Shown one piece after another: positions 1-63,972 of a stretch of 64,000 bases of DNA (position 1 is the first letter of the stretch; each line of letters opens with the position of its first letter). Made by a program: the position numbers and the translations under genes. The notes below the pieces were generated by a model that was not told the DNA's origin, did not search any database, and saw nothing but the letters and a program-made list of their open reading frames with translations. Source of the stretch: Phymorhynchus buccinoides (taxonomy: Eukaryota; Mollusca; Gastropoda; Neogastropoda; Raphitomidae); NCBI GenBank assembly GCA_017654935.2, contig CM065682.1, forward strand, positions 82,618,024 to 82,682,023, in the 5' to 3' direction.

Positions 1-104
1 GCAGAGCACGGCACGACTGTCACCGACATTGGCCACGACCAACTCTGAGCTGTCCTTGATCAAACACACTGTAGCTGTAGTGCCTGTAGAGAGTGCGTCT
101 GTGT
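1..104 (-). CDS. PPM1K: PPM1K-like mitochondrial PP2C phosphatase, internal exon (runs off window)
   Basis: Read on the minus strand, the acceptor TTGCAG (110-105) opens an exon encoding [12 protein letters not shown], then [14 protein letters not shown], and continuing past base 1. SGTTATV followed by ELVVASVGDSRAILC is the core of the PP2C fold in PPM1K, and the VGDSRAV motif carries a metal-coordinating Asp region. The exon begins with two bases (AC) that complete the G left by the exon ending at 2788 to give GAC (Asp), so the two exons join in phase. PPM1K dephosphorylates the branched-chain ketoacid dehydrogenase complex in the mitochondrial matrix (family knowledge). The rest of the catalytic domain lies off the left edge. 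Confidence 0.85.
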
Positions 105-139
105 CTGCAACACAATGAATATTCATGATATGATAATGA

Positions 140-248
140 GACTGTCAGTATCACCGATATTGGCAATGACCAGCTCTGGCTAATACTAACCCTAAATCAA
201 ACAGACTGTGGCAGTAGTAGTGAAACTGAAAGTGTCTGTTTCTGCAAC
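140..248 (-). pseudogene. Diverged ghost copy of the PPM1K exon at 1-104
   Basis: Read on the minus strand, this segment copies the neighbouring exon and its acceptor. It has TTGCAG, then TTTATVCLI followed by an in-frame TAG, then remnants of LVIANIGD. Base-level similarity to 1-110 is obvious, with several indels. The stop and indels make it non-functional, so it is an old tandem duplication of acceptor plus exon. Confidence 0.75.
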
Positions 249-274
249 TAAATTAACACAAATTATCATAATTA

Positions 275-1007
275 CAGACCTGCCAACCCTCTAACAGACC
301 AAAGAGGAATATTTGAAGCAGAAAAGAGGAATTTTAGGGAGTTAAGAGGAATTTCGGCGCGGAACTTTACCTTTCGCAAACAAACACGATTTGATGCAAT
401 TAACTCTTTGTTCTGAACAAGGGTCCAGAATGATCGGCCGCGCTCAGCGCAATGTTATGCTCCACCAAAAAATCCAGCAAAAAGAGTGTTGCCCGAATCA
501 CCTCATGAGGATCCTTAGTCTCCTCCTCTTCGGCTGACTTAGCGAATGATGCATCTGTGTGTTTTTGAGACGTAACATGGTGCTTCACATCTATCATCCC
601 TCCATGAGACACTGTAAAGTCATCCGCGCATGGTATGCATCGGGCATAATACACACCTTTACTAGAGCTCCTAATACACGGAAACTTTTCAGTGTATGCC
701 TTGCGAAATCTTTGTTCAGTTCTCTTTCTTTTCCCAACGGCCAAATCACTACAATCCCCGCCATGCTTCGCCATCTTGCAGATTTTGATTGGCGGGAAAG
801 GAAGTTGGTGAGCGGAAATACTGTTCGGGTTAGAAGATCGAATATACGCACGGCAGCTGTGCTGCTCTGCGTTCGGTTTACTTTCGTTTGTTTTTTTGTG
901 TGTGAAGATTTTTGAAAGCGGAATTTTACGGAACCGAGCGGAAGGGCGGAATAATTATCATCTGAGCGGAAGAAATTCCGCCCAAAGCGGAAAGGTTGGC
1001 AGGTCTG
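275..1007 (-). mobile_element. hAT-like DNA transposon remnant with BED-type zinc finger ORF
   Basis: Terminal inverted repeats CAGACCTGCCAACC (275) and GGTTGGCAGGTCTG (ending 1007) bound a 733-bp element; CAG...CTG ends with this sequence are typical of hAT elements. The flanks are AT-rich (TAATTA) without a clean 8-bp duplication. The minus-strand ORF 774-400 (124 aa) has the C-x2-C ... HGG ... H-x5-H pattern of a BED-like finger (YYARCIPCADDF, then SHGGMIDVKHH, then SQKH). It is followed by LVEHNIALSAADHSGPLF, typical of the start of hAT transposases. The catalytic domain and dimerisation region are missing, so the element is non-autonomous. Confidence 0.7.
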
Positions 1008-1030
1008 TAATTATAATAATGTAAAGCACT

Positions 1031-1345
1031 GTCAAGTCAAGTCAACTTTATTATGGCATAAATTGAGAGAAATTACAACCAGGATAACATAAGAAACAGC
1101 ACAATGAACACATCGTTATGAGAAAAAACAACAACATAGGCAACATCGAAACAACAAAGAAGCGCACGGACAAGACGAATGGATGGATAGGTTAAATTAC
1201 ATGACTTAGTAAATCCTACAAAAATACTTTATTATTGTTATTTTTAAACATAATCATAATCAATGATATAAAAAATCTATGAATAAAATAAAACATGATG
1301 TGAATTGAAAGGAGACAACAAAAAAGCATAAAAATACAACCATGT
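1031..1345 (-). mobile_element. 3' end of a non-LTR retrotransposon, minus orientation
   Basis: At 1034-1055 the plus strand reads GTCAAGTCAAGTCAACTTTATT. On the minus strand that is AATAAAGTTGAC followed by TTGAC repeats, a common 3' terminus of L2/CR1-type elements. The adjacent AT-rich 300 bp holds no coding match and is probably 3' UTR of the same truncated insertion. Confidence 0.4.
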
Positions 1346-1349
1346 TTGG

Positions 1350-1780
1350 GGCGGATCAGCCAGTCATGGAAGAGGGGAGGGGGCAGCCCCAAGTGGTCAG
1401 TTGGGGTGGGGTGATGGGTCTGGGGGGATTGCCTCCCAGAAGCTGATGATAATTTGAATGTAAAAGATGCAATAAAGGATTCTCGTGAGAGAATAGCATA
1501 GAACTACAATTTGTCTTCCTCTTTTTCTTTCCATTTTTTGTCTGAGGGGGTGGAACCCCTGTAACCCCCCTCAAATCCATTTGATGCAGTACCAAGTCCA
1601 TGACAGCAATGTGTAGTGAATGGGCTGAAACTCTTTCGTTTCCTTGTGTCCTTTCTGTTGTTGTTTTTGTTTTGTTTTTTGCCGTTATAAATTTTTGGGG
1701 GCAGAGAGATACGTCTGCCCCCCCTCCTCGAAGCCAGGGGGGCAACTAGCCCCCCCCCGTTCCTACGCCAGTGTGTAATT
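1350..1780. repeat. G/C-run dispersed repeat, unclassified
   Basis: Short runs of G or C (for example GAGGGGGTGGAACCCC, GCCAGGGGGGCAACTAGCC) alternate with unique sequence and end in TCCTACGCCAGTG. A similar C-run block occurs near 32365-32435, so this is probably a dispersed retroelement piece. No protein can be read. Confidence 0.3.
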
Positions 1781-1837
1781 AACTGATGGTTGTGCTGTTT
1801 GGGTGAGAAACTGTCACTAGTGTCAGTGTCTGCAACA

Positions 1838-2787
1838 CAGTACACCTTCCCCACACTAACCCATGAAGTAATGAAGTGCATCAGGTGCCATGACGTTGTG
1901 GACCTCAATGCAACACAGTACACCTTCCCCACACTAACCCATGAAGTCGTGCATCAGGTGTGTTGCCATGACGTTGTGGACCTCAATGCAACACAGTACA
2001 CCTTCCCCACACTAACCCATGAAGTCGTGCATCAGGTGTGTTGCCATGACGTTGTGGACCTCAATGCAACACAGTACACCTTCCCCACACTAACCCATGA
2101 AGTAATGCATCAGGTGCCATGACGTTGTGGACCTCAATGCAACACAGTACACCTTCCCCACACTAACCCATGAAGTAATGAAGTGCGTCAGGTGCCATGA
2201 CGTTGTGGACCTCAATGCTACACAGTACACCTTTCCCATACTAACCCATGAAGTAGTGCGCCAGGTGCCTTGAGGACCTCAATGCTATACAGTACACCTT
2301 TCCCATACTAACCCATGAAGTAGTGCGCCAGGTGCCTTGAGGACCTCAATGCTATACAGTACACCTTCCCCATACTAACCCATGAAGTAGTGCGCCAGGT
2401 GCCTTGAGGACCTCAATGCTATACAGTGCACCTTTCCCACACTAACCCATGAAGTGCATCAGGTGCCATGACGTTGTGGACCTCAATGCTATACAGTACA
2501 CCTTTCCCATACTAACCCATGAAGTAGTGCGCCAGGTGCCTTGAGGACCTCAATGCTATACAGTGCACCTTTCCCACACTAACCCATGAAGTGCATCAGG
2601 TGCCATGACGTTGTGGACCTCAATGCTATACAGTACACCTTTCCCATACTAACCCATGAAGTAGTGCGCCAGGTGCCTTGAGGACCTCAATGCTATACAG
2701 TGCACCTTCCCCATACTAACCCATGAAGTAGTGCGCCAGGTGCCTTGAGGACCTCAATGCTATACAGTGCACCTTTCCCATACTAAC
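1838..2787. repeat. Tandem array of the PPM1K exon-1 donor junction
   Basis: About 14 units of 62-78 bp contain, on the minus strand, GAGGTCCACAACGTCATGG, then the exon end near CACTTCATGG, then the donor GTTAGTGTGG. The true exon end at 2840-2786 has the same order. Each unit is therefore a copy of exon 3' end, donor and start of intron. Units fall into two length classes, with or without the ACAACGTCATGGC part. Confidence 0.85.
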
Positions 2788-3377
2788 CCATGAAATAGTG
2801 CGCCAGGTGCCTTGCCATGACGTTGTGGACCTCAACAAAGGCCCGGTCCAGCACAGTGTGAAGGTCAGAGGTCGTGGTCAGCAGGTAGCTGATGTGGTGC
2901 TCCAGGTTCTCCTCCACGTAATCGGCGGCGAAGGAGCTGCCGTGGCCGTCGAAGATGGCGACGTAGACGAGGTTAGCGGCCAGCTCCCTGAGAACGATGC
3001 GATCCTCGTTGGCCTTGCGGCGGCCGATGAGCGAGGCGCGCCCCACAATGTCCAGCGGGATCTTGGGAATGAGTTTGCCCTTCTTGATGCTCTCCTCCAT
3101 CAGGATGGACAGCGACAGCCGGTTGTTCCACGACCCCAGCGTGTCAAAGTTCACGCCCCGCTGGGGTTGACCTTTATTCTCAGGGTCGTTGTACACTTTG
3201 TGCCGCGCACCACCGGTGGAGATGGTTCTCACTGTGGGTGGCCTCCCTTTGACGCGGAGCCAGAAATTGCGGCGAAGTTTGAAACATGTCTGACAGAGGG
3301 CGAGCCAGTGGGCAGGGGACGACCGGGCAGCTGATGACATCAGCATGGTCAGTGCTCGTGGTCACCTTGCTGGGAAT
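2788..3377 (-). CDS. PPM1K: PPM1K-like mitochondrial PP2C phosphatase, first coding exon
   Basis: The exon runs from acceptor CCTAG (AG at 3379-3378) to donor G|GTTAGT (2787). Coding starts at ATG 3346-3344; 3377-3347 is 5' UTR. Residues 1-45 are rich in Arg/Ser/Leu without acidic residues, as in a mitochondrial presequence. Then come the PPM1K-like WDNR-type segment (LGSWNNRL), IPKIPLDIVGRASLIGRR, the metal-site motif NEDR, and IFDGHGSSFAADY. The classical PP2C motif is DGHGG; the second Gly is Ser here. The last residues, AFVEVHNVMARHLAHYFM, align with the helix before the SGTTATV strand encoded at 1-104. Phase 1 at the donor matches the next exon. At least one upstream non-coding exon is implied. 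Confidence 0.85.
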
Positions 3378-11660: not shown

Positions 11661-12606
11661 TTGCGAATTCACACACAACACAAGGCCTCGTGACGTTTTT
11701 GTGCTGTGGGAATTCTGGACCAGTTTCTCAAGAACAAGCGCTTTGAGCACTAGTGGAAAGTTGGCGAAAAGTGTCAAAAACGCATTTCTTGTTGTTGAGA
11801 TTTGCATTGAGATTTAGTTGAAATAATTTTGTTTGACCAATCAGATAAGAGCCTGTAATATCTTTCCGCTTAACTTTTGTAAAGATCGTTTCTTAGACAT
11901 CGTTTGTCAAAAACGTTTGCAAAGTGCAGTGCGCTCTCGTGAAATTTCCCCTGGTTTAGGTCATTGCCGGCTTGCTTGATTAAGAACACACTAGACCTCC
12001 ACCCGTGTGACACACTGATGGGAAATGAATGGTCATGGGCAGGCACAAAAACTTGGTTTGATCAACAGGGCTTGTGACGTATGTGAGTGGTGATGTAAGC
12101 ATAAAAAACAGGTGGTTATGTGTGCCTAAAGCATGCATGCTTTGTATTTTTACATCAGTTTATATTGTTATGATCAGACGCAATTTTTACCCTAATTTAT
12201 GCTTTTTCAGGCCGACTTTGCGTAAGCCAAACGCATTTTGAAAAACTAGCGCGATGCCTGTTCCACTGTAGTAGTATTCTAATTATGCAAGGGAAACAGT
12301 CAGTGCTTTTCTTAATATATCTCTATATAGTCTATGTCAGTATACATTGTTCTGTGTATGTGGTCAACTTTTTGTTAGACCCTCTACTAGTACTGGTAGT
12401 AGTAGTACTTCCTGAACAATTGAGCCAATCATAATGAAACTCGCAGATGTATTACTGATGCCCGATGGTGATGCCATTTTGTCAGCTTAGCCAAATACCA
12501 AGCTTTTATAAACGTAACAATCCCAGTTGTCGTATATGATGTTATTATTTTTCTTAACCAGTCACACTGAAAATTGGCCTATAAATGATGTTTCCTGTCA
12601 CCCTAA
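11661..12606 (+). other. Unique intronic or upstream sequence, nothing recognised
   Basis: About 950 bp without tandem structure, transposon ends or coding similarity. It could hold a non-coding exon of the HP1BP3-like gene, but I cannot point to one. Confidence 0.4.
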
Positions 12607-13089
12607 CAGCCCTGAAAGTGGAAAATGTTGTCCACCAGCGTTTGGCTGGTAACATGTTTTTTTGCCAGCCAAACCAAAAGTTTTACCAGCCAAACCGTTT
12701 TGCCAATCAGTGACGAGTTTCGAGAACAGATTGAACACTTCATTTTGTTGGCCTTGTCGTCGAAGAGAAGCCATGAAAATTATTTCTTTCATTTTGGTAG
12801 AAAAGTTCGTGTTTCACTCTTAGCCTTTTTGGGTGATGGCTGCGATGCCTTTGAACTTGAAGTTGAAGCCGAAGAACGTTTCATTTCGAACCTGCACTGG
12901 CTGGCGAGCACACAAATTGCATATCGTATTTCTGGTGCGTGGGAAAACATGGATTGGGAAAGGAATCTCGCGCGAGAAAGAACATCGTTTTTTGCTCACT
13001 CGCATTTGGTGGGTGAAGTTAATTATATAAACTCGCCATTCCCCCCCCCCCCCCCCCCCCCCCCCCCCCACTCGCCACTTTCAGGGCTG
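12607..13089. mobile_element. MITE copy 1 with CAGCCCTGAAAGTGG ends
   Basis: The inverted ends CAGCCCTGAAAGTGG and CCACTTTCAGGGCTG bound 483 bp, flanked by CCTAA on both sides. The interior is about 90% identical to copy 2 (13244-13727). It includes a poly-C run of about 31 bp (13040-13070) absent from copy 2. There is no intact transposase. The CAG...CTG ends suggest a hAT relative, though the 5-bp flank does not fit hAT well. Confidence 0.75.
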
Positions 13090-13128
13090 CCTAATGTGCA
13101 CCTTTGATATTTAACTATTCAGTGTCAC

Positions 13129-13243
13129 TAGTTTTTTTGCTTTCTACTTGCAGTCATTCTGGCAATTTACTTAAGATATAATAACTGATTATATTATAGA
13201 AGCGCATCAAGGAAGAGTATTTGGAGGAGTTCACTCTGTATAA
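13129..13243 (+). pseudogene. Ghost copy of HP1BP3 coding exon 1 start
   Basis: TTGCTTTCTACTTGCAGTCA resembles the true acceptor at 13791-13810 (TTGCTTTCTCCCTGCAGTCA). GAAGCGCATCAAGGAAGAGT and ATTTGGAGGAG then match the exon's coding start (KKRIKAEYLEE). About 36 bp of unrelated AT-rich DNA separates the two parts, and MITE copy 2 begins right after. It is an old, broken duplication of acceptor plus exon start. Confidence 0.6.
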
Positions 13244-13807: not shown

Positions 13808-14060
13808 TCACCATGCCGGCCGTCAAGAAACGCATCAAGGCAGAGTACTTGGAAGAGCAGCAACGCTCTGACCAGAACGGAAAGGGAGGGGGGGAGGGGG
13901 AGCGGGAGGAGGCCCCGCCCCCAGTGACCTTGACCTTGACGGGGGCCATGAAGAGAAAGGCGCCCCCTGGGGGCAACCTGCTGAAGGGGCTGGACGGAGA
14001 GGTGCTGATTGAGAAACGGAAAAGGATGGTTCCACCAGCGGAGTACAGACTGGATGCCTG
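13808..14060 (+). CDS. HP1BP3: HP1BP3-like protein, coding exon 1 (residues 1-83)
   Basis: The acceptor CTCCCTGCAG ends at 13807; ATG is at 13813 in the context TCACCATG. The exon encodes MPAVKKRIKAEYLEEQQ, a Gly/Glu-rich stretch, PPVTL at residues 36-40, then VLIEKRKRMVPPAEYRLDA. The donor is G|GTCTGT, weak, but the 248 coding bases leave phase 2 and exon 2 supplies the G for Trp 83, so the join is supported by frame. Whether this ATG is the true start is not certain, since an in-frame upstream exon cannot be excluded. All ten exons 13813-41300 sum to 2817 nt (938 aa plus stop). HP1BP3 is a nuclear linker-histone-like protein that binds nucleosomes and HP1 in heterochromatin (family knowledge). 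Confidence 0.75.
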
Positions 14061-14167
14061 GTCTGTGTGTGTATGTTTGTGACTGTCTGTGTGTGTGTGT
14101 GATTGTCTCTGTGTGTGTATGTTTGTCATTGTGTGTGTGTGTGTGTGATTGTCTCTGTGTGTGTGTG

Positions 14168-14206
<39 letters not shown>

Positions 14207-15125
14207 TTGTCTCTGTGTGTGTGTGTGTGTGATTGTCTCTGTGTGTGTATGTTTGTCACTGTGTGTGTGTGTGTGTGTGATTGTCTCTGTGTGTGTGTGT
14301 GTGTGATTGTCTCTGTGTGTGTATGTTTGTCATTGTGTGTGTGTGTGTGTGATTGTCTCTGTGTGTGTATGTTTGTCATTGTGTGTGTGTGTGTGTGTGA
14401 TTGTCTCTGTGTGTGTATGTTTGTGTGTATGTTTTGTGTGTGTGTGTGTGTGATTGTCTCTGTGTGTGTGTGTGTGATTGTCTCTGTGTGTGTATGTTTG
14501 TCATTGTGTGTGTGTGTGTGTGATTGTCTCTGTGTGTGTATGTTTGTCATTGTGTGTGTGTGTGTGTGATTGTCTCTGTGTGTGTGTGTGTGATTGTCTC
14601 TGTGTGTGTATGTTTGTCATTGTGTGTGTGTGTGTGTGATTGTCTCTGTGTGTGTATGTTTGTCACTGTGTGTGTGTGTGTGTGTGATTGTCTCTGTGTG
14701 TGTATGTTTGTCACTGTGTGTGTGTGTGTGTGATTGTCTCTGTGTGTGTATGTTTGTCATTGTGTGTGTGTGTGTGTGTGATTGTCTCTGTGTGTGTATG
14801 TTTGTCACTGTGTGTGTGTGTGTGTGATTGTCTCTGTGTGTGTGTGTGTTTGTCACTGTCTGTGTGTGTGTGTGATTGTCTCTGTGTGTGTATGTTTGTC
14901 ACTGTGTGTGTGTGTGTGTGTGATGTGTCTCTGTGTGTGTATGTTTGTCACTGTCTGTGTGTGTGTGTGATTGTCTCTGTGTGTGTATGTTTGTCACTGT
15001 CTGTGTGTGTGTGTGATTGTCTCTGTGTGTGTATGTTTGTCACTGTGTGTGTGTGTGTGTGATTGTCTCTGTGTGTGTATGTTTGTCACTGTGTGTGTGT
15101 GTGTGTGATTGTCTCTGTGTGTGTA
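14061..15125. repeat. (TG)n-rich 46-bp minisatellite at the exon 1 donor
   Basis: Units such as GATTGTCTCTGTGTGTGTAT followed by GTTTGTCATTGTGTGTG repeat about 22 times, beginning at the exon 1 donor itself. Every unit carries GTATGT- or GTCTCT-like GT sites. The long His/Thr and Cys/Val frames are artefacts. Confidence 0.9.
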
Positions 15126-15356
15126 TTTCCCTTGATTGATTGATTCAATGATTGATTGATTGATTCAATGATTGATTGATTCCCTTGATTGATTGATTGA
15201 TTCGATGATTGATTGATTCCCTTGATTGATTGATTCAATGATGGATTGATGATTCAGAGATTCCCGGGATTGATTGCCGTTACTTAATCACTTCATTGAT
15301 TTGATTGATTCAATGATGGATTGATTGATTCCCTTGATTGATTGATTGATTGGTCT
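15126..15356. repeat. TTGA-rich simple repeat
   Basis: Runs of TTGATTGATTGATTC with CAATGATT interruptions fill the end of intron 1. Confidence 0.85.
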
Positions 15357-15375
15357 GTGTGGTTTGTGTTGTCAG

Positions 15376-15499
15376 GCTGGAGGAGCACTTTGAGAAGAAA
15401 GCGGAGAGCACACTGTCAATGAACAAACTGTACACGCTGTACACCGACATGTGTCAGCAGGACAATACCAATGTGCTGGAGATTGACAGCTTCAAATTG
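15376..15499 (+). CDS. HP1BP3: HP1BP3-like protein, coding exon 2 (residues 83-124)
   Basis: Acceptor GTTGTCAG ends at 15375; donor TTG|GTCAGT at 15500. It encodes LEEHFEKKAESTLSMNKLYT, LYTDMCQQDNTNVLEID and SFKL. This segment with the start of exon 3 has the helix spacing of an RFX-type or primase-type winged helix (LY..Y...C......LEIDSFKLVLKNKLGKEFG). As I know the vertebrate HP1BP3, it has no such N-terminal domain. Phases: enters completing Trp 83, leaves phase 0. Confidence 0.8.
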
Positions 15500-16866
15500 G
15501 TCAGTGTGTGCTGTGTGTGTTGTCAGTGTGTACTGTGTGTGTTGTCAGTGTGTACTGTGTGTGTTGTCAGTGTGTACTGTGTGTGTTGTCAGTGTGTACT
15601 GTGTGTGGTGTCAGTGTGTGCTGTGTGTGTTGTCAGTGTGTACTGTGTGTGTTGTCAGTGTGTGTTGTCAGTGTGTACTGTGTGTGTTGTCAGTGTGTAC
15701 TGTGTGTGTTGTCAGTGTGTACTGTGTGTGTTGTCAGTGTGTACTGTGTGTGGTGTCAGTGTGTGCTGTGTGTGTTGTCAGTGTGTACTGTGTGTGTTGT
15801 CAGTGTGTACTGTGTGTGTTGTCAGTGTGTACTGTGTGTTGTCAGTGTGTACTGTGTGTGTTGTCAGTGTGTACTGTGTGTGTTGTCAGTGTGTACTGTG
15901 TGTGTTGTCAGTGTGTACTGTGTGTGTTGTCAGTGTGTACTGTGTGTGTTGTCAGTGTGTACTGTGTGTGTTGTCAGAGTGTACTGTGTGTTGTCAGTGT
16001 GTACTGTGTGTGTTGTCAGTGTGTACTGTGTGTGTTGTCAGTGTGTACTGTGTGTGTTGTCAGTGTGTACTGTGTGTGTGTGTGTGTGTGTGTGTACAGT
16101 GTGTACTGTGTGTGTTGTCAGTGTGTGCTGTGTGTGTTGTCAGTGTGTACTGTGTGTGTTGTCAGAGTGTACTGTGTGTTGTCAGTGTACTGTGTGTGTT
16201 GTCAGTGTGTACTGTGTGTGTTGTCAGTGTGTACTTTATGTGTTGTCAGTGTGTACTGTGTGTGTTGTCAGTGTGTACTGTGTGTGTTGTCAGAGTGTAC
16301 TGTGTGTTGTCAGTGTACTGTGTGTGTTGTCAGTGTGTACTGTGTGTGTTGTCAGTGTGTACTGTGTGTGTTGTCAGTGTGTACTGTGTGTGTTGTCAGT
16401 GTGTACTGTGTGTGTTGTCAGTGTGTACTGTGTGTGTTGTCAGTGTGTACTGTGTGTGTTGTCAGTGTGTACTGTGTGTGTTGTCAGTGTGTACTGTGTG
16501 TGTTGTCAGTGTGTACTGTGTGTGTTGTCAGTGTGTACTGTGTGTGTTGTCAGTGTGTACTGTGTGTGTTGTCAGTGTGTACTGTGTGTGTTGTCAGTGT
16601 GTACTGTGTGTGTTGTCAGTGTGTACTGTATGTTGTCAGTGTGTACTGTGTGTTGTCAGTGTGTACTGTGTGTGTTATCAGTGTGTACTGTGTGTGTTGT
16701 CAGTGTGTACTGTGTGTGTTGTCAGTGTGTACTGTGTATGTTGTCAGTGTGTGCTGTGTGTGTTGTCAGTGTGTACTGTGTGTGTTGTCAGTGTGTACTG
16801 TGTGTGTTGTCAGTGTGTACTGTGTGTTGTCAGTGTGTACTGTGTATGTTGTCAGTTTGTACTGTG
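15500..16866. repeat. 22-bp minisatellite, about 60 copies, each with TTGTCAG
   Basis: The unit GTCAGTGTGTACTGTGTGTG followed by TT starts directly at the exon 2 donor. Each unit reproduces TGTTGTCAG, the same bases as exon 2's acceptor (15367-15375). The ORFs of up to 526 codons here are a by-product of a 22-bp repeat open in all three forward frames. Confidence 0.95.
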
Positions 16867-16980
16867 TACAATGTCCGTCATGTCAACAACGGTTTTGCAA
16901 AACCAAAATAACCAAACCAAACCAAAATAAAACAAAGCAAAACATGATCAATGAGGGCACATTGTTGACATGTTGTTGTT

Positions 16981-17090
16981 GTTGTAGGTGCTGAAGAACA
17001 AGCTAGGCAAGGAGTTTGGGTTGAAGGAAGGCTCAGCATACAGCAGTGTGCTCAAGGAGGGCATGTTGTTAATGTCATGATGTTGTTGTT
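16981..17090 (+). repeat. 110-bp duplication of the exon 3 acceptor and exon start
   Basis: 16988-17063 is identical over 76 bp to 17098-17173, including GTTGTTGTTGTAG before it. If this first acceptor were used, the frame would run EGMLLMS then TGA, so only the second copy gives full-length protein. Complete identity implies a recent event. Confidence 0.9.
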
Positions 17091-17097
17091 GTTGTAG

Positions 17098-17262
17098 GTG
17101 CTGAAGAACAAGCTAGGCAAGGAGTTTGGGTTGAAGGAAGGCTCAGCATACAGCAGTGTGCTCAAGGAGGGCAAGGCGAAGAAGAAGGCGGTGGTGGCGC
17201 CCTCTCTGGCCTACAAGGTCAAGGACATCATCCACGAGGCTCTCAAGGCCAGCGGCAGTCCT
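17098..17262 (+). CDS. HP1BP3: HP1BP3-like protein, coding exon 3 (residues 125-179)
   Basis: Acceptor GTTGTAG ends at 17097; donor CCT|GTATCC at 17263 is weak but in phase 0. It encodes VLKNKLGKEFGLKEGSAYSS, a Lys-rich turn, then AYKVKDIIHEALKASGSP, which is the first helix of H15 domain 1 (linker-histone winged helix). The domain continues as SKGVVFAWVRKF in exon 4. Confidence 0.85.
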
Positions 17263-17553
17263 GTATCCTTGACAACCAACTGTTACCTTTACCCTCAGGG
17301 GCAAGATTGACACAAGACTGATGCAAGACTGACATGGACAGAGAGCAGGACAGACTGACACTCAGATTGAAGATGATGGTGGTGGTGATGATGGTGGTGG
17401 TGATGGTGGTGATGATGGTACTACTTCTACTAATATGGTTCCTTGACGTACCATTCAGTCGAAAAGGCGTGGTGGTTGCCTTGGTGATGATGATGATGAT
17501 GATGATGATCCTTGACGCACCATTCAGTCGAAAAGGCGTGGTGTTTGCCTTGG

Positions 17554-17587
<34 letters not shown>

Positions 17588-17717
17588 CCTTGACGCACCA
17601 TTCAGTCGAAAAGGCGTGGTGTTTGCCTTGGTGATGATGATGATGATGATGTTGATGATGATGATGATGATGATCCTTGACGCAGCATTCAGTCGAAGGG
17701 CGTGGTGTTTGCCTTGG

Positions 17718-17754
<37 letters not shown>

Positions 17755-17797
17755 CCTTGACGCAGCATTCAGTCGAAGGGCGTGGTGTTTGCCTTGG

Positions 17798-17843
<46 letters not shown>

Positions 17844-18553
17844 CCTTGACGCAGCATTCAGTCGAAGGGCGTGGTGTTTGCCTTGGTGATGATGATGATG
17901 ATGAGGTTGATAGTGATGAGGATAATAATGATGAGGATGATAGTGATGAGGATGATAGTGATGATGATGATGATGTTGATGATTCTTGACGCAGCATTCA
18001 GTCGAAGGGTGTGGTGTTTGCCTGGGTGATGATGATGATAGTGATGATGATAATGGTGATGATAGTGATGATGATGATGATGATACTTGACGCAGCATTC
18101 AGTCGAAGGGCGTGGTGGCTGCCTGGGTGATGATGATGATAGTGATGATGATGGTGATGATGATGATAATGATGATGATAATGGTGATGATAGTGATGAT
18201 GATAGTGATGATGATGATCTTTGACGCAGCATTCAGTCGAAGGGTGTGGTGTTTGCCTGGGTGATGATGATGATAGTGATGATGATAATGGTGATGATAG
18301 TGATGATGATGATAGTGATGATGATGATTCAGTCGAAGGGCGTGGTGGCTGCCTGGGTGATGATGATGATAGTGATGATGATGGTGATGATGATGATGAT
18401 CCTTGACGCAGCATTCAGTCGAAGGGTGTGGTGTTTGCCTGGGTGATGATGATGATAGTGATGATGATGATGATAGTGATGATGATGATGATCCTTGACG
18501 CAGCATTCAGTCGAAGGGCGTGGTGTTTGCCTGGGTGATGATGATGATGATAG

Positions 18554-18590
<37 letters not shown>

Positions 18591-18651
18591 CCTTGACGCA
18601 GCATTCAGTCGAAGGGCGTGGTGTTTGCCTGGGTGATGATGATGATGATAG

Positions 18652-18685
<34 letters not shown>

Positions 18686-18703
18686 CCTTGACGCAGCATT
18701 CAG
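17263..18703. repeat. Array of the exon 4 acceptor with (GAT)n, about 13 copies
   Basis: After a short leader (17263-17440), units of 80-130 bp read GATCCTTGACGCAGCATTCA, GTCGAAGGGCGTGGTGTTTG, then CCTGGGTGATGATG... The exonic part, from TCGAAGG to GCCTGG, is the first 24 nt of exon 4. The first three copies have TCGAAAAGGCG, one base longer, and so are frame-shifted relative to the functional exon. Between copies only the GAT-run length varies. Confidence 0.9.
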
Positions 18704-18835
18704 TCGAAGGGCGTGGTGTTTGCCTGGGTCAGGAAGTTCGTGTCAGCCAAGTACCCAGCACTGCAGATAGACCTGCGGCCCCACTACCTGAGAACAGCTC
18801 TGGAGAGAGAGATCAATGCAGGACGAGTGGAACTG
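18704..18835 (+). CDS. HP1BP3: HP1BP3-like protein, coding exon 4 (residues 180-223)
   Basis: The acceptor chosen is CATTCAG ending at 18703, because it keeps phase 0 with exon 3; an alternative AG at 18696 would shift frame. It encodes SKGVVFAWVRKFVSAKYP, then IDLRPHYLRTALEREINAGR and VEL, helices 2 and 3 of H15 domain 1. Compared with canonical H15 domains, the KKFV...YP and LR.AL...V..G.L spacing is kept. Donor CTG|GTATGG at 18836. Confidence 0.9.
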
Positions 18836-19340
18836 GTATGGACTGTGTGTGTGTGTGTGTGTAGACCTGCAGCCCCACTACCTGAGAACAGCTCTGGAGA
18901 GAGAGATCAACGCAGGACGAGTGGAACTGGTATGGACTATGTGTGTGTGTGTCTGTCTGTCTGTGTGTGTGTGTGTCTCTCTCTCTCTCTCTGTGTGTGT
19001 GTGTAGACCTGCGGCCCCACTACCTGAGAACAGCCATGGAGAGAGAGATCAACGCAGGACGAGTGGAACTGGTATGGACTGAGTGTGTGTGTGTGTGTGT
19101 GTCTGTCTGTCTGTGTGTGTGTCTCTGTGTGTGTGTGTAGACCTGCGGCCCCACTAACTGAGAACAGCCATGGAGAGAGATCAACGCAGGACGAGTGGAA
19201 CTGGTATGGACTGAGTGTGTGTGTCTGTCTTGTCTCTCTGTGTGTGTGTGTGTGTGTGTAGACCTGCGGCCCCACTACCTGAGAACAGCCCTGGAGAGAG
19301 AACAACACAGGACGAGTGGAACTGGTATGGACTGAGTGTG
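18836..19340. repeat. Array of the exon 4 donor end, 4 extra copies
   Basis: Each unit is (TG)n-TAG, then ACCTGCGGCCCCACTACCTG ... GTGGAACTG, then GTATGG. It copies the last 65 nt of exon 4 with its donor and creates a new acceptor-like (TG)nTAG in front. Each unit is thus a complete pseudo-exon of 65 nt, not a multiple of three. Confidence 0.9.
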
Positions 19341-21285: not shown

Positions 21286-21289
21286 GCAT

Positions 21290-22389: not shown

Positions 22390-22439
<50 letters not shown>

Positions 22440-56905: not shown

Positions 56906-56946
56906 TTACGATTCATTCTGGGGTTGGCCTGTGTAGTCCACTTTGC
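56906..56946 (-). CDS. SPOCK: Testican-like protein, last coding exon
   Basis: Acceptor GTTTCCAG (AG at 56948-56947). The exon begins GC, completing A|GC (Ser) from the exon at 57496, then encodes KVDYTGQPQNES and TAA (56908-56906). The tail is short and lacks the long acidic run of vertebrate testicans. Confidence 0.7.
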
Positions 56947-57244
56947 CTGGAAACAAATAAAACAAGATATGCCTATTAATCCACAGATTTATTTTTTCAA
57001 AGTCTACTAAGTATGAATTAGAAATAACCAAAACCCAAATTTATATAAGAAAATGATATCAGAAAATTCTGGCAGACTAAATTAAATATGACTGGATGTA
57101 GCAAAATATAACCATGAATGGATGTTAAAAAAAATTCAAAAATATGGTATAAGAAATCAGAAAAGAAAAAGATAACAGAAGAAGAAGAGGAAGAACAAGG
57201 AAAATAAGATGCTGCAACAAAAAGACGACGAAGAAGAAAAAAAA

Positions 57245-57495
57245 GCTCACTGCAGGGACTGTGGCCCTTCACCGTGTCCCTAGTATGGACCCCGTGGGGG
57301 TCACACACCAATAATGATAACAATAATAACTCACTGCAATGAGCGCGACCCTTGCTTTTTGTGTCCCTGGAATCTGTGACCCCGTGGGGGTCACACACCA
57401 GTAATAATAATAATAACTCACTACAATGAGCGTGTCCCTGGAATCTGTGACCCTGTGGGGTTCACACACCAGTAATGATAACAATAATAACTCAC
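57245..57495. repeat. Array of the thyroglobulin-exon donor, 3 extra copies
   Basis: Copies of GTGTGACCCCCACAGGGTCA, CAGATTCCAGGGACAC, GCTCATTGCA|GTGAGTTATT (minus sense) at about 90-bp intervals. Each carries the last third of the exon and a GTGAGT donor. Confidence 0.85.
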
Positions 57496-57639
57496 TGCAA
57501 TGAGCGCGTCCCTTGGTTTGTGTCCCTGGAATCTGTGACCCTGTGGGGGTCACACACCAACACGTCTGTCGAGCCAGTCCCCCCTGACACTGCTCCTTGT
57601 GATAGAATCCCTCCTTATCACAGCTGGGGATGTATTGCT
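57496..57639 (-). CDS. SPOCK: Testican-like protein, thyroglobulin type-1 exon
   Basis: Acceptor AATTTCAG (AG at 57641-57640); donor TTGCA|GTGAGT. Entering as G|AG (Glu), it encodes QYIPSCDKEGFYHKEQCQGG, LARQTCWCVTPTGSQIPGTQ, TKGRAHC. This has the full thyroglobulin type-1 signature: C..EG.Y...QC, CWCV, G..I.GT, final Cys. In testicans this domain follows the EF-hand module with the same QYIP.CD..G.Y lead-in. The domain can inhibit cysteine proteases in some relatives (family knowledge). Both splice sites of this exon have been tandemly amplified. Confidence 0.9.
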
Positions 57640-57641
57640 CT

Positions 57642-58915
57642 GAAATTGTACAATACATGGATAATACACTGCTCCTTGTGATAGAATCCCTCCCTGTCAT
57701 AGCTGGGGATGTATTGCTCTGAAATTGTACAATACATGGATAATACACTGCTCCTTGTGATAGAATCCCTCCCTGTCATAGCTGGGGATGTATTGCTCTG
57801 AAATTGTACAATACATGGATAATACACTGCTCCTTGTGATAGAATCCCTCCTTATCACAGCTGGGGATGTATTGCTCTGAAATTGTACAATACATGGATA
57901 ATACACTGCTCCTTGTGATAGAATCCCTCCCTGTCATAGCTGGGGATGTATTGCTCTGAAATTGTACAATACATGGATAATACACTGCTCCGTGTGATAG
58001 AATCCCTCCCTGTCACAGCTAGGGATGTATTACTCTGAAATTGTACAATACATGGATAATACACTGCTCCGTGTGATAGAATCCCTCCCTGTCACAGCTA
58101 GGGATGTATTACTCTGAAATTGTACAATACATGGATAATACACTGCTCCGTGTGATAGAATCCCTCCCTGTCACAGCTAGGGATGTATTACTCTGAAATT
58201 GTACAATACATGGATAATACACTGCTCCGTGTGATAGAATCCCTCCCTGTCACAGCTAGGGATGTATTGCTCTGAAATTGTACAATACATGGATAATACA
58301 CTGCTCCGTGTGATAGAATCCCTCCCTGTCACAGCTAGGGATGTATTGCTCTGAAATTGTACAATACATGGATAATACACTGCTCCGTGTGATAGAATCC
58401 CTCCCTGTCACAGCTAGGGATGTATTGCTCTGAAATTGTACAATACATGGATAATACACTGCTCCGTGTGATAGAATCCCTCCCTGTCACAGCTAGGGAT
58501 GTATTGCTCTGAAATTGTACAATACATGGATAATACACTGCTCCGTGTGATAGAATCCCTCCCTGTCACAGCTAGGGATGTATTGCTCTGAAATTGTACA
58601 ATACATGGATAATACACTGCTCCGTGTGATAGAATCCCTCCCTGTCACAGCTAGGGAACTCTGAAATTGTACAATACATGGATAATACACTGCTCCGTGT
58701 GATAGAATCCCTCCCTGTCACAGCTAGGGATGTATTACTCTGAAATTGTACAATACATGGATAATACACTGCTCCGTGTGATAGAATCCCTCCCTGTCAC
58801 AGCTAGGGATGTATTACTCTGAAATTGTACAATACATGGATAATACACTGCTCCGTGTGATAGAATCCCTCCCTGTCACAGCTAGGGATGTATTACTCTG
58901 AAATTGTACAATACA
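57642..58915. repeat. 79-bp array of the thyroglobulin-exon acceptor, about 16 copies
   Basis: Minus-sense units: ATGTATTGTACAATTTCAG, AGCAATACATCCCYAGCTGT, GACAGGGAGGGATTCTATCA, CAMGGAGCAGTGTATTATCC. The exonic part is the first 48 nt of the exon (EQYIPSCDREGFYHTEQC). Reading on from any upstream copy gives IIHVLYNFRAIHP and a stop, so these are poison copies. Confidence 0.95.
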
Positions 58916-58924
58916 ATACATGGA

Positions 58925-59405
58925 CAATGTACTTCACACATGTCTTCCCCATTGTAACAAGTCTTCACACCTCACACACACCAGAAGGGCAGATATTCAA
59001 CGTTACATGTGTCTTCCCCATTGTAACAAGTCTTCACACCTCACACACACCAGAAGGGCAGATATTCAACGTTACATGTGTCTTCCCCATTGTAACAAGT
59101 CTTCACACCTCACACACACCAGAAGGGCAGATATTCAACGTTACATGTGTCATTGTAACAAGTCTTCACACCTCAGAAGGGCATGTGTCTTCCCCATTGT
59201 AACAAGTCTTCACACCTCACACACACCAGAAGGGCAGATATTCAACGTTACATGTGTCTTCCCCATTGTAACAAGTCTTCACACCTCACACACACCAGAA
59301 GGGCATATATTCAACGTTATATGTGTCTTCCCCATTGTAACAAGTCTCCACATCACACACACCAGAAGGGCAGACATTCAACACACCAGAAGGGCAGACA
59401 TTCAG
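58925..59405. repeat. 70-bp array resembling the next exon's donor region, about 6-7 copies
   Basis: Minus sense: GGGGAAGACACATGTAACGT, TGAATATCTGCCCTTCTGGT. This matches the real junction AGGACACAG|GTAACACTGA, ATGTCTGCCC at 59418-59395 with substitutions. It is an older, diverged junction array. Confidence 0.7.
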
Positions 59406-59411
59406 TGTTAC

Positions 59412-59468
59412 CTGTGTCCTTGCTGTTCTCTATTTCGTCCAGTCGGGTGTAGCAGGGGGATTCCGATT
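59412..59468 (-). CDS. SPOCK: Testican-like protein, short linker exon
   Basis: Acceptor TTGTTGTAG (AG at 59470-59469); donor CACAG|GTAACA. It encodes ESESPCYTRLDEIENSKDT, matching the testican linker (PPC...L..IQK) between EF-hand and thyroglobulin domains. Phase 1 on both sides fits its neighbours. Confidence 0.8.
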
Positions 59469-59837
59469 CTACAACAAAAATATAAATCAAAACCTTTAGA
59501 ATTATAAACTAACACATTTCCAACTCTACACAAATTTAAAATTAAAGTAACACATTTCGTTTTTTAACAACAAAAAAAAGTTATTTAAATAACGCATTTG
59601 TTTTTTTACCTGAACGCATTAGCCTTGGTGTAAGCAGCACATTCATCCTTTCAGACACCACAATGATCAAAAAGCTACAATTTGAGTTGTTGATTTTGTT
59701 TTCTTTCCAAGCAGAAATGGTAGTTTAACAAACACTTAAAGATGTATTACAATGATATTGTTTGCATTGCACTCTACTGAATAATACTTTTAGAATTATG
59801 TTATGTAGAAGAGTTTGAATACACCAACATTCCTGCA
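59469..59837 (-). other. Intron, AT-rich, nothing recognised
   Basis: AT-rich unique sequence within the testican-like intron; no repeat longer than a few bases. Confidence 0.4.
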
Positions 59838-59937
59838 TCTTATATATATTTTCGAAATCATCGAAGCATCGCGAAGCGCAAGGGGGCGGAGTCAAAAGTC
59901 AAAGCCCGAAGCGCGGAGTCGACGCGCGAAGCGCTAG
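59838..59937 (+). mobile_element. 100-bp micro-Helitron-like insertion
   Basis: Exactly 100 bp, A|TCTTATATATATTTTCG ... GCGCGAAGCGCTAG|T. It has a 5' TC, a 3' CTAG before T, and a GC-rich self-complementary stretch (GCGCGAAGCGC) just before the end. Insertion is between A and T with no duplication. CGAAGCGC motifs recur inside. Confidence 0.5.
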
Positions 59938-60145
59938 TACAATATATTTCAAGGAAAGTTCATTGAAAAATGTGGAGAAGCTAAAAGAAAACCAACTTGA
60001 TGACAGAAGTATCGATAAAAACAAAAGATAAGTTACAGAGCATCACGTTATTTATGCAGCCCTGATTTGCGGACAGAGGAGTTTTAAAATTAAAAATCAG
60101 GAAAAAAGCATCAAGTACACACATAAACACACATACACCTTCCAT
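59938..60145 (-). other. Intron, nothing recognised
   Basis: AT-rich unique sequence. Confidence 0.4.
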
Positions 60146-61165
60146 AATGACACAGAGACCTCTCTTAGGGAAGCACCCGCACCACTGCTGCTGTGTCAGG
60201 CCGACATCGTGGTTCACACACACACAGACCTCTCTTAGGGAAGAACCCACACCACTGCTGCTGTGTCAGGCCGACATCGTGGTTCACACACACACAGAGA
60301 CACATCTCTTAGGGAAGCACCAGCACCACTGCTGCTGTGTCAGGCCGACATCGTGGTTCACACACACACAGACACACAGAGACACATCTCTTAGGGAAGC
60401 ACCAGCACCACTGCTGCTGTGTCAGGCCGACATCGTGGTTCACACACACACAGACAACCACACAGAGACACATCTCTTAGGGAAGCACCAGCACCACTGC
60501 TGCTATGTCAGGCCGACATCGTGGTTCACACACACACACACACACACAGAGACACATCTCTTAGGGAAGCACCAGCACCACTGCTGCTGTGTCAGGCCGA
60601 CATCGTGGTTCACACACACACAGACACACACACAGAGACACATCTCTTAGGGAAGCACCAGCACCACTGCTGCTGTATCAGGCCGACATCGTGGTTCACA
60701 CACACACAGAGACACATCTCTTAGGGAAGCACCAGCACCACTGCTGCTGTGTCAGGCCGACATCGTGGTTCACACACACACAGAGACACATCTCTTAGGG
60801 AAGCACCCGCACCACTGCTGCTGTGTCAGGCCGACATCGTGGTTCACACACACACAGACACAGACACAGACACACATCTCTTAGGGAAGCACCCGCACCA
60901 CTGCTGCTGTATCAGGCCGACATCGTGGTTCACACACACACAGAGACACATCTCTTAGGGGCAAGCACCTGCTGTGCACCACTGCTGGCTGTGACACATC
61001 TCTCAGGCCGACATGCGTGGTCAGGCCGACATCGTGGTTCACACACACACAGACACAGACACAGACACACACTTAGGGAAGCACCCGCACCACTGCTGCT
61101 GTCTCTTAGGGAAGCACCCGCACCACTGCTGCTGTGTCAGGCCGACATCGTGGTTCACACACACA
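60146..61165. repeat. Array of the EF-hand exon donor end, about 13 copies
   Basis: Minus sense: AACCACGATGTCGGCCTGAC, ACAGCAGCAGTGGTGCTGGT, GCTTCCCTAAGAGA, then TGTGTCTC or GGTCTCTG with (TG)n. It copies the end of the EF-hand exon ([18 protein letters not shown]) as NHDVGLTQQQWCGCFPKR. Most copies have lost the GT of the donor; the first two keep GAGAG|GTCTCT. Confidence 0.9.
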
Positions 61166-61592
61166 CACCACAGTGCATGAATTCCCACATTCTGGCTCCT
61201 TTTAGTTTTCCACAGAGACATTTGTTTCAAGTTATTTCCTTTAAAGGGGCAAATATTCTTATCACTGATTGTGGTTAGGGATAGGAAAAGACCTTACAAG
61301 TGCCATACCACCATAAAACAATGTAAGCCTAATGGATAAGACACTTTAAATTGGTTGATGCTGGTGACGAGTGTTAACAAAAGGCATGAACTGAAAGGAG
61401 CTGAGAATAGCTACTGTGACACATACACACATACAGTGATACACACAGACACACACAAGCAGACACAGACACACACAAGCAGACACAGACACAGAGAGAC
61501 ACACTCACACACACACACACAAGCAGACACAGACAGACAGACACACGCACATACAGTGATACACACACACACAAGCAGACACAGACACACAC
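61166..61592. other. Intron with CA/CAGA repeats
   Basis: Unique until about 61420, then CACACA and AAGCAGACACAGACACAC repeats up to the exon donor. Confidence 0.7.
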
Positions 61593-61796
61593 CTCTCTTA
61601 GGGAAGCAGCAGCACCACTCTCGCTGCGTCAGGCGGCCATCTTGGTTGAGGTCACAGGTCAGGAGGTAAGGGTGCAGGCAGGGTTCACGGTCGTTGTTGT
61701 CAATGACCTTGACCTCTGACCTGGACAGGTCGTGGCTTTTGTCCGCGTCAAGTTGATGGAACTCCCACAGAACGGAACGAAAACACTGACAGCCTT
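61593..61796 (-). CDS. SPOCK: Testican-like protein, EF-hand (SPARC-type) exon
   Basis: Acceptor GTTCACAG (AG at 61798-61797); donor AGAG|GTGTGT. It encodes [63 protein letters not shown]. Two canonical EF-hand loops are present: [12 protein letters not shown] and [12 protein letters not shown], with ligands at 1, 3, 5, 9 and 12. The Cys pair and EWC.CF signature are those of the testican/SPARC extracellular calcium-binding module. Secreted extracellular matrix role from family knowledge. Confidence 0.92.
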
Positions 61797-62076
61797 CTGT
61801 GAACACAATACACCGTAATGATATGAACACTGATAATATTAACTAGCAGACCTCAGGACTGTGAGTGATGATGACTGAAACTAAATGGCATTTCTCCTAT
61901 CAGACCTCAGGGCTGAGTGATGATAACTGAAACTAAAGGGCATTTCTCTTAGCAGACCTCAGGGCTGCAGCCAAGGGGATTAGTTGGCCTTTAGGGACAT
62001 CACCCACACCGGCTGTCCTCAGGGGACACTACCCACCCCATCCCTCCAGATAACAGAGCAACATAAGCAGACTTAC
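61797..62076 (-). other. Intron with short duplications
   Basis: Three copies of a block with CAGACCTCAGG(GCT/ACT)G, TGAGTGATGATAACTGAAAC (61850-61970); otherwise unique. Confidence 0.6.
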
Positions 62077-62230
62077 CTCCCTCTCTCAGTTCCTTCTTTA
62101 CTGACAGGTGGCGCTTCGCTGGGCGGCCATGTTGGTTGCCGTGGTGATGGAGGTGGCGCTCCCTGGTGTGCAGCAGGTGAAACCAGACAGTCAGACGTCG
62201 ACGCATCTCATCCATGCTGGCACTGTCGCA
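62077..62230 (-). CDS. SPOCK: Testican-like protein, exon before the EF-hands
   Basis: Acceptor CTCCCCTCAG (AG at 62232-62231); strong donor GGGAG|GTAAGT. It encodes CDSASMDEMRRRLTVWFHLL, HTRERHLHHHGNQHGRPAKR, HLSVKKELREG. C....(L/M)..(L/M)..RL..WF..LH is the helix that opens the testican calcium-binding module. Leaves phase 1, completed by AA of the next exon. Its start is phase 0, which does not match the phase-1 end of the exon at 62778, so a small exon between them may be unrecognised. Confidence 0.8.
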
Positions 62231-62234
62231 CTGA

Positions 62235-62575
62235 GGGGAGGCTGGGAAACAGTGATGAATATTGATGATGCTCATGAATATTAATGAGTCAGCGTCGACG
62301 CATCTCCTCCATGCTGGAACTGTCACACTGAGGGGAGGCTGGGAAACAGTGATGAATATTGATGATGCTCATGAATATTAATGAGTCAGACGTCGACGCA
62401 TCTCCTCCATGCTGGAACTGTCACACTGAGGGGAGGCTGGGAAACAGTGATGAATATTGATGATGCTCATGAATATTAATGAGTCAGACGTCGACGCATC
62501 TCCTCCATGCTGGAACTGTCGCACTGAGGGGAGGCTGGGAAACTGATGAATATTGATGATGGTCATTAATATTAA
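62235..62575. repeat. 95-97-bp array of this exon's acceptor, about 3-4 copies
   Basis: Minus sense: CAGCCTCCCCTCAG, TGTGACAGTTCCAGCATGGA, GGAGATGCGTCGACGTCTGA, CTCATTAATATTCATGAGCA. The exonic part gives CDSSSMEEMRRRLTH and then a stop. Confidence 0.9.
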
Positions 62576-62777
62576 TGACACATTGGTATAGGCTGCGTCC
62601 CACTGATTCAGAAAGACAGAAAATGCAAACTAATTCCATTTAAAAATTCTGATGATGATATATAGGCCACATGCCTTGGAGTCATTTTAATATTTTCTCA
62701 GAGAATTGTCTGCACACAAATGTGAAGAAATCTACACAAAAAGTGGAATAAGATTACGAGTCCTTGAAGAAACTCAC

Positions 62778-63016
62778 CGTGATGCTGGGTCAGGGTTTGC
62801 TTCCTCTTCTCCTCACTCTGAGGGACACCACTGGTCCTGCCCGCACTGATGTGGACGTCGTGCGGGGCACTGGGCTGGCCATGGGTGTTGTGCGGGGCAT
62901 GGTGCGGGGAGTCGTGCGGGGTATGAGGGAGGGAGGGGTGAGGAGGGGGGTCAATTTCGTTCAAGTCTTCCTCCGCTTTCTCTTTCATTTCATGGTAATG
63001 TTTGAACAGACGAGCA
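62778..63016 (-). CDS. SPOCK: Testican-like protein, upstream exon (linker region)
   Basis: Acceptor ATCATTGCAG (AG at 63018-63017); strong donor CACG|GTGAGT. It encodes ARLFKHYHEMKEKAEEDLNE, then a His/Pro-rich stretch with tandem PHDSPHHAPHNTH-like units, ending SEEKRKQTLTQHH. It has no family domain, but its strand, position and codon quality fit the linker between a Kazal domain (off window) and the calcium-binding module. Assignment to the same gene is inference. Confidence 0.55.
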
Positions 63017-63039
63017 CTGCAATGATATACGTGAACAGA

Positions 63040-63190
63040 GATCATAACAAAATCTTTTGGGCAACGTTCCTTTGCATTCCAAGGCCCAACTCTCTGGAAC
63101 AAACTACCTTTCAATATCAGGCACTCTTCATCAGTTACGCCGTTCAAATCATCCACAAAAACTAACCTCTTCAAATTTTCTTGACTTAAA
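63040..63190 (+). mobile_element. Reverse transcriptase C-terminal fragment of a non-LTR retrotransposon
   Basis: The plus strand encodes RSFAFQGPTLWNKLPFNIRH, then PFKSSTKTNLFKF. The GP.LWN.LP..IR.......FK...K..LF pattern closes many CR1/jockey/RTE-type reverse transcriptases. The element is 5'-truncated. Confidence 0.6.
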
Positions 63191-63815
63191 CTTGTCCTGT
63201 ATCCCGACCCCGATTCCCTAAATGTTGGGACACTTTTTGGATCTTCACAGCAATGTGTGTGTGAAGACTGGGCTTGCTTTGGTGCGTGGATGTCTGTGTG
63301 AAGAATGGGCTTGCTTTGGTGCGTGGATGTCTGTGTGAAGAATGGGCTTGCTTTGGTGCGTGGATGTCTGTGTGAAGAATGGGCTTGCTTTGGTGCGTGG
63401 ATGCGTGTGCTCTAGGTTTGTTTTTGTCTCTGTGTGTGTGTGTGTGTGAAGAGTGGACTTGCTTTGGTGCGTGGATGCGTGTGCTCTAGGTTTGTTTTTG
63501 TCTGTGTGTGTGTGTGTGTGTGTGTTCATGCGTCTGGGTGGGTAGGTGTGCGTGTGTGTATGTGTGTTCATGCGTATGTTCATGTGTGCAATCGCGTGTG
63601 CGCGTGTGTCCTGACAGTGTGTGGTGGTGTGTTGTGGGTGTGGGTGTGTCCTGACAGTGTGTGGTGGTGTGGTGTGGGTGTGGGTGTGTCCTGACAGTGT
63701 GTGGTGGTGTGGTGTGTTGTGGCTGTGGGTGTGCAAGGCTACTTCGCGTCAGTTCTTTGGTTGTTTGTTTTCTTGTTTAAAATTTATTGTTCAATGTTTT
63801 CTTTTTAATCAATGT
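63191..63815. repeat. 42-bp and (TG)n repeats within the retroelement 3' region
   Basis: Six units of GAAGAATGGGCTTGCTTTGG, TGCGTGGATGTCTGTGT (63258-63500) are followed by TG-rich units GTGTCCTGACAGTGTGTGGT (63605-63735). Confidence 0.85.
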
Positions 63816-63890
63816 AAATGTTTTGTAAAGTGCTTAGAGCCCTTACTGAGAATAGGCGCTATAAAAATATGCATTATTATTATAATTATT
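63816..63890 (+). mobile_element. Non-LTR 3' tail
   Basis: GTTTTGTAAAGTGCTTAGAG, GCGCTATAAAAATATGC, (ATT)n. It completes the truncated retrotransposon begun at 63040. Confidence 0.55.
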
Positions 63891-63929
63891 ATAAATATAA
63901 TAGACAATATAAGATAACTCTGTGCTCTA

Positions 63930-63972
63930 TTTCTCTTTCAGTTTGTGGTAATGTTTACAACAGGCAATGACC
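63930..63972 (-). pseudogene. Ghost copy of the start of the exon at 62778-63016
   Basis: Minus sense: GTCATTGCCTGTTGTAAACA, TTACCACAAACTGAAAGAGA, AATAG, against the exon's CATTGCAGTGCTCGTCTGTT, CAAACATTACCATGAAATGA, AAGAGAAAGC. The AG acceptor and frame are lost and a TAG follows. The retroelement 63040-63890 lies between copy and exon. Confidence 0.45.

Follow-up and report, generated by a model that had tools for sequence, protein, structure and literature searches.

The closest described counterparts of the structures considered here are the 'mirages' of amphioxus, minisatellite-like tandem copies of the 5' or 3' exon-intron border that occur in Adh3, the globins BflGb6 and BflGb9, troponin C and PGBD5 (PMC3087553, PMC3902484; PGBD5 and troponin C from PMC3902484). 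Many of the amphioxus copies retain the AG or GT of the splice site, the units measure 10-72 nt in Adh3 and 150-160 nt in the globins, and normal splicing is reportedly left undisturbed. The window, that is the whole 64,000-nt stretch of snail DNA analysed here, contains PPM1K, an HP1BP3-like gene and the 3' part of a testican/Cow-like proteoglycan gene, and tandem copies of the exon-intron border are found at 13 of the 32 junctions modelled in these three adjacent genes. The snail arrays resemble the amphioxus structures in that the units span a genuine border, both 5' and 3' borders are affected and the AG or GT persists in many, though not all, of the copies. On account of these three shared structural features, the snail arrays are termed mirage-type.

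By protein homology the host is a caenogastropod mollusc, an amphioxus origin being rejected on the same grounds, whereas the published mirage hosts found are cephalochordates, a difference taken here to reflect the history of discovery rather than a structural criterion. The snail arrays further differ in the density of affected junctions, with up to 30 copies at one site, and in being known from the genomic sequence of one haplotype, while length polymorphism and cDNA support are also described for the amphioxus mirages. No mollusc mirage was found in the Creative Commons-licensed literature by title or abstract opening, where mirages were found in print only for amphioxus. The initial annotation of this DNA had proposed a possibly undescribed mode of minisatellite birth, which does not hold for the structure itself, already published from the amphioxus Adh3, globin, troponin C and PGBD5 genes (PMC3087553, PMC3902484). 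New here are the mollusc host, to which mirages are thereby extended from amphioxus, and the density of affected junctions; the latter, which exceeds one in three modelled junctions across the neighbouring genes, stands out as the most surprising feature of the locus. Two further systems are related in part. Intron gain by tandem genomic duplication, in which a new intron derives from an exonic AGGT (PMC3443670), likewise involves a short duplication carrying splice-site sequence, while in the snail existing introns are enlarged instead. The minisatellite in intron 3 of the abalone TSSK1-like gene, with a 27-nt unit of variable copy number (PMC6905558), is also gastropod and intronic, its unit being presented without mention of a junction in the accessible part of that report.

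The reading favoured here, with a probability of roughly three in four, is that the arrays are mirage-type minisatellites which arose by ordinary short tandem duplication and are tolerated as the copies leave with the intron.

Splice junctions carrying tandem copies

Open frames were joined into gene models at GT-AG borders of compatible phase. The 32 junctions comprise 17 acceptors and 15 donors, the acceptor of HP1BP3 exon 1 being a putative 5' untranslated region (UTR) site. The modelled genes are:

2788..3346, minus strand: PPM1K exon 1, coding part; open frame, phase fits exon 2; Pfam PP2C
1..104, minus strand: PPM1K exon 2, truncated by the window end; phase fits exon 1
13813..41300, plus strand: HP1BP3-like gene, 10 exons; 938 aa open frame without internal stop, all borders GT-AG
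13813-14060, 15376-15499, 17098-17262, 18704-18835, 21684-21776, plus strand: HP1BP3-like exons 1-5
23825-24137, 27747-27900, 35380-35492, 35854-36031, 40004-41300, plus strand: HP1BP3-like exons 6-10
56906..63016, minus strand: testican/Cow-like proteoglycan gene, 3' part, 6 exons in the window; 282 aa; Pfam SPARC_Ca_bdg and Thyroglobulin_1
63016-62778, 62241-62077, 61796-61593, 59468-59412, 57639-57496, 56946-56906, minus strand: testican/Cow-like exons

Every junction was put through an identical BLAST test, in which the site with 60 nt to either side served as query and copies counted when they lay on the same strand no more than 6 kb away, reached E<=1e-4 and covered 10 nt or more both before and after the site. 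It recovered 133 site-spanning copies, or ghosts, at the 13 positive junctions. These are the PPM1K exon 1 donor, the HP1BP3 acceptors of exons 3, 4, 5, 8 and 10 and donors of exons 4 and 7, and the testican/Cow acceptors 57639 and 62241 and donors 57496, 59412 and 61593. Both border types are thus affected (7/17 acceptors, 6/15 donors), as are both strands, with PPM1K and testican/Cow on the minus and HP1BP3 on the plus strand. The units consist of a real splice site and its exon edge, one terminal copy being the true exon edge; on all these points the initial annotation was accurate. Ten of the 32 junctions lie within arrays called by Tandem Repeats Finder (TRF), each including 18 nt of exon or more. 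All copy numbers are assembly-dependent and refer to a single haplotype. The arrays and copies are:

within 151-320, minus strand: degenerate ghost of the PPM1K exon 2 acceptor, upstream of the exon (local alignment)
1837..2835, minus strand: PPM1K exon 1 donor array, period 67, 48 nt exon, 13 ghost copies (TRF, BLAST)
12604..13229, plus strand: HP1BP3 exon 1 acceptor, degenerate copy of a ~0.63-kb duplication (88.9% over 459 nt plus short fragments)
16970..17173, plus strand: HP1BP3 exon 3 acceptor, two-copy duplication, 76 nt exon (TRF, BLAST)
17440..18729, plus strand: HP1BP3 exon 4 acceptor array, period ~95 with (TGA)n, 26 nt exon, 13 ghosts (TRF, BLAST)
18768..19348, plus strand: HP1BP3 exon 4 donor array, period 94 to ~142, 68 nt exon, 4 ghosts (TRF, BLAST)
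21305..21629, plus strand: HP1BP3 exon 5 acceptor array, period 102, 22 nt exon, 3 ghosts; TRF ends 54 nt before the true site (TRF, BLAST)
27868..28563, plus strand: HP1BP3 exon 7 donor array, period 50, 33 nt exon, 13 ghosts (TRF, BLAST)
32725..35431, plus strand: HP1BP3 exon 8 acceptor array, period ~87 with (GAT)n, 52 nt exon, 30 ghosts (TRF, BLAST)
36117..40043, plus strand: HP1BP3 exon 10 acceptor arrays, period 86, 40 nt exon, 24 ghosts (TRF, BLAST)
57361..57513, minus strand: testican/Cow 57496 donor array, period 71, 18 nt exon (TRF; longer by eye), 2 ghosts (TRF, BLAST)
57587..58915, minus strand: testican/Cow 57639 acceptor array, period 79, 53 nt exon, 16 ghosts (TRF, BLAST)
58941..59404, minus strand: array adjoining the testican/Cow 59412 donor, period 69; one ghost passes the BLAST test, 11 nt exon (TRF, BLAST)
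60122..61160, minus strand: testican/Cow 61593 donor copies, period 74 (TRF 60122-60969; to about 61160 by eye; TRF, BLAST)
62189..62578, minus strand: testican/Cow 62241 acceptor array, period 98, 53 nt exon, 3 ghosts (TRF, BLAST)
41277..41448, plus strand: array over the HP1BP3 stop codon (coding end and 3' UTR), period 75 (TRF)

The number of 61593 donor ghosts is 10 in the BLAST test and 12 in the codon-position alignment described below. The three TRF clusters of the exon 10 acceptor arrays make up about 60% of HP1BP3 intron 9. In the same region a 0.9-kb direct duplication (36701-37600 and 38201-39099, 99.0% identity) was observed, for which the query ends were set by hand, so that its true extent may be longer.

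Sixteen sites had been named as repeat units in the initial annotation, and 13 of these coincide with all 13 BLAST positives. The acceptor it had placed at 62230 does carry an array, while the reading phase places the site itself 11 nt upstream, at 62241. For the PPM1K exon 2 acceptor, a clear but degenerate ghost is present, one site-spanning copy with a local alignment score of 57 against a maximum of 33 in shuffled sequence (0/500 reach 57). A ghost is probable for 13808, the true acceptor site of HP1BP3 exon 1: fragments of the roughly 0.63-kb two-copy duplication flank it on both sides, and the match at the site itself is 20 nt long (E 0.002) and not exactly collinear. Site 63016, also named, yielded only a 34-nt exon-internal match which does not cross the splice site.

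The array over the HP1BP3 stop codon shows the identical edge pattern at a constraint border other than a splice site. The window thus illustrates how the edges of constraint, namely splice sites, a stop codon and the reading frame, shape which tandem duplications survive.

Minisatellite is abundant throughout, accounting for about 52% of the window (33,088 of 64,000 nt by TRF, microsatellites left out) both inside the gene spans and between them, in 70 clusters or 63 families once neighbours are merged by eye.

Constraint and decay of the ghost copies

Under the favoured reading, short tandem duplications with units of about 10-140 nt would form frequently in this genome, within genes as well as between them. 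Where a duplicated segment crosses an exon-intron border, the outermost copy would retain the real splice site joined to the remainder of the exon, while the remaining copies would end up inside the intron and presumably be removed with it. Junction-crossing duplications would survive because they carry little cost, and could persist, expand by unequal exchange or slippage and then decay neutrally. Each array can be regarded as a natural experiment on how a single working site is recognised by the spliceosome among as many as 30 that are nearly identical to it.

The state of the ghosts was examined by codon-position and dinucleotide analyses of 135 aligned ghosts in 12 arrays, the 59412 array being left out. 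Departures of the ghosts from the array majority are spread evenly over codon positions 1, 2 and 3 (55/1868, 46/1871 and 56/1885), and the ghosts are therefore free of coding constraint. When the array majority is set against the true exon, the differences number 7/177, 5/175 and 16/175, a third-position excess which fits purifying selection on the true exon, with the array majority probably retaining the older state. The repeat periods obey the reading frame within exons but not at junctions, being divisible by three in 12/12 wholly exonic TRF rows as opposed to 15/66 non-exonic clusters and 3/13 junction arrays.

The initial annotation had also raised selection for redundant splice signals, whereby copies would be retained since extra sites aid the splicing of repeat-choked introns. 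In agreement with this, the AG or GT is kept at its aligned place in 125/135 ghosts; in the 61593 array the GT is displaced in nine of 12 ghosts (AGAGGTGTG to AGATGTG) and remains one base on, where it stands in a poorer setting. Over the 12 arrays, however, the splice dinucleotide is not significantly better retained than other adjacent column pairs (P 0.29). When the 61593 array is left out, one dinucleotide departure is seen against 17 expected (P 0.06), under an alignment rule that requires a match across the site and is thus itself biased toward conserved sites. Redundancy is accordingly considered very improbable.

It is similarly hard to credit that an assembler multiplied the copies. 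Tandem arrays are error-prone, and an amphioxus globin mirage was apparently misassembled in the genome draft, as a supplement caption indicates (PMC3087553). The snail copies, however, differ by several percent and in length, occur in three genes and include the degenerate ghost at the PPM1K exon 2 acceptor, which makes such an artefact highly unlikely, although the numbers of copies may be inaccurate. As regards how the favoured tandem duplications may have arisen, GAGGGCA occurs near both breakpoints of the two-copy array at HP1BP3 exon 3, and TTCTGTG (about 7 nt) is common to the exon breakpoint and the intron flank at the exon 5 acceptor, hinting at microhomology at these breakpoints.

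Possible junction preference within the window

The initial annotation further held that the arrays keep choosing the junction. Its counterpart as an explanation is junction-targeted birth, in which splice sites or exon edges start duplication more often than other sequence, through microsatellite-rich intron ends giving homology, stalling, R-loops, or the exon edge serving as an intact template. All tests of an excess were made post hoc on one window chosen for looking odd, which tempers what they can contribute to this alternative. In a permutation in which the founding unit of each array was placed randomly in the collapsed sequence over 5000 rounds, 2.3-2.6 junctions (short period) or 3.5-4.0 (longest period) were expected within TRF arrays as opposed to the 10 observed, a 2.5- to 4.4-fold excess; 10 junctions were reached in 0/5000 permutations with the short period and in 12-13/5000 with the longest, for the whole window or the gene spans. 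Junction clusters have longer units (median 86, n=17) than the others (35, n=49), some families being counted repeatedly. Size bias alone would yield this difference, and the founder-unit permutation allows for size. Per-site identity does not differ between junction and other clusters (P 0.58). A microsatellite tract lies beside the splice site in several junction units, which would also suit targeted birth.

The plain point control, in contrast, gave no excess: copies were found at 1021/3000 (34%) of collapsed noncoding positions and 717/1421 (50%) of those in gene spans, against 13/32 junctions. The complex-sequence positives outside arrays in the gene spans were traced mostly to the 0.9-kb intron 9 duplication and to a 1.7-kb repeat pair described below. 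In a refined control, chosen after this result had been seen, copies were restricted to tandem distance and second copies dropped. With copies within 200-300 nt, 11-12/32 junctions were then positive against 12-16% of points (nominal P about 0.0006-0.0023), and at 500 and 1500 nt P was 0.001-0.008. This refined control favours an excess because the junction arrays' own units were left out. Once these were restored, 16-17% of all points and 21-22% of gene-span points were positive at 200-300 nt, with P 0.004-0.007 and 0.037-0.049, respectively, and at 500-1500 nt P was 0.006-0.010 for all points and 0.043-0.074 for gene spans. These higher P values lower the odds of junction-targeted birth and raise those of tolerated ordinary duplication.

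Were the exon edge the source of the copies, a gradient of similarity would be predicted along each array. The gradient runs in the predicted direction in 6/10 arrays (negative Spearman rho) and in the opposite one in 4/10 (positive rho), with nominal significance in both directions, and this version of targeted birth was rejected.

Several points weigh against the favoured reading. Pure tolerance predicts no junction excess, and 10 junctions were observed where 2.3-4.0 were expected; the refined point controls, with or without the own units, also lean toward an excess. The 12 exonic rows behind the triplet rule overlap and come down to about five loci, of which some are acidic, low-complexity stretches with a triplet period in any case, and the microhomology was noted by eye in two arrays only. 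A junction excess is thus suggested within the window and unproven for the genome, so that the claimed preference, upheld by the founder-unit permutation and not by the plain point control, is suggestive at best. Targeted birth is considered unlikely. It is doubtful, too, that in some animal lineages the borders between exons and introns act as genuine hotspots where minisatellites are born, having become so independently in gastropods and amphioxus. If they did, a large share of introns would be growing outward from their own splice sites, each with dozens of decoys ignored by the spliceosome.

Relatives of the genes and other repeats

The nearest relative of both proteins is from Littorina saxatilis, with 64% in local alignment over 28% of the query (56% in multiple alignment) for HP1BP3 and 56% over 100% for the Cow protein, where the match is named 'proteoglycan Cow-like'. 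The next named species are Batillaria and Pomacea for HP1BP3 and Babylonia and Batillaria for Cow. Alignments were made with seven gastropod-like relatives for HP1BP3 and six for Cow, and by eye no repeated edge peptides were seen at the modelled borders in either, some HP1BP3 relatives lacking whole stretches (P0004, P0005). As the relatives cross the modelled borders without repeated edges, the exon models are independent of the arrays. Two of the seven HP1BP3 relatives are probably transcripts, given that their contigs measure 3.4-3.6 kb and consist of coding sequence over about 70-80% of their length. The Littorina HP1BP3-like (P0001) and Cow-like (P0026) proteins are both listed on a 104,294,781-base contig, suggesting that the gene neighbourhood is probably conserved.

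The 1.7-kb element occurs twice, at 24864-26561 and 28743-30442 in HP1BP3 introns 6 and 7, with 98.2% identity and inverted ends of about 29 nt, on the basis of which it is probably a DNA transposon. In-frame tandem repeats with periods divisible by three are located in acidic low-complexity stretches of HP1BP3 exon 6 (23886-24118) and exon 10 (40602-41087). A 28-nt unit is repeated about 129 times (3.6 kb) at 7589-11205, between PPM1K and HP1BP3. Within PPM1K intron 1, the minus strand of 400-954 holds a 184 aa open frame, which we take to resemble a transposon-type zinc-finger fragment. Finally, similar-looking 16-nt repeats of the GTAACGCC type, as judged by eye from the TRF consensus, lie far apart at 26579-26649, 36786-37063, 38271-38468 and 51626-51666.

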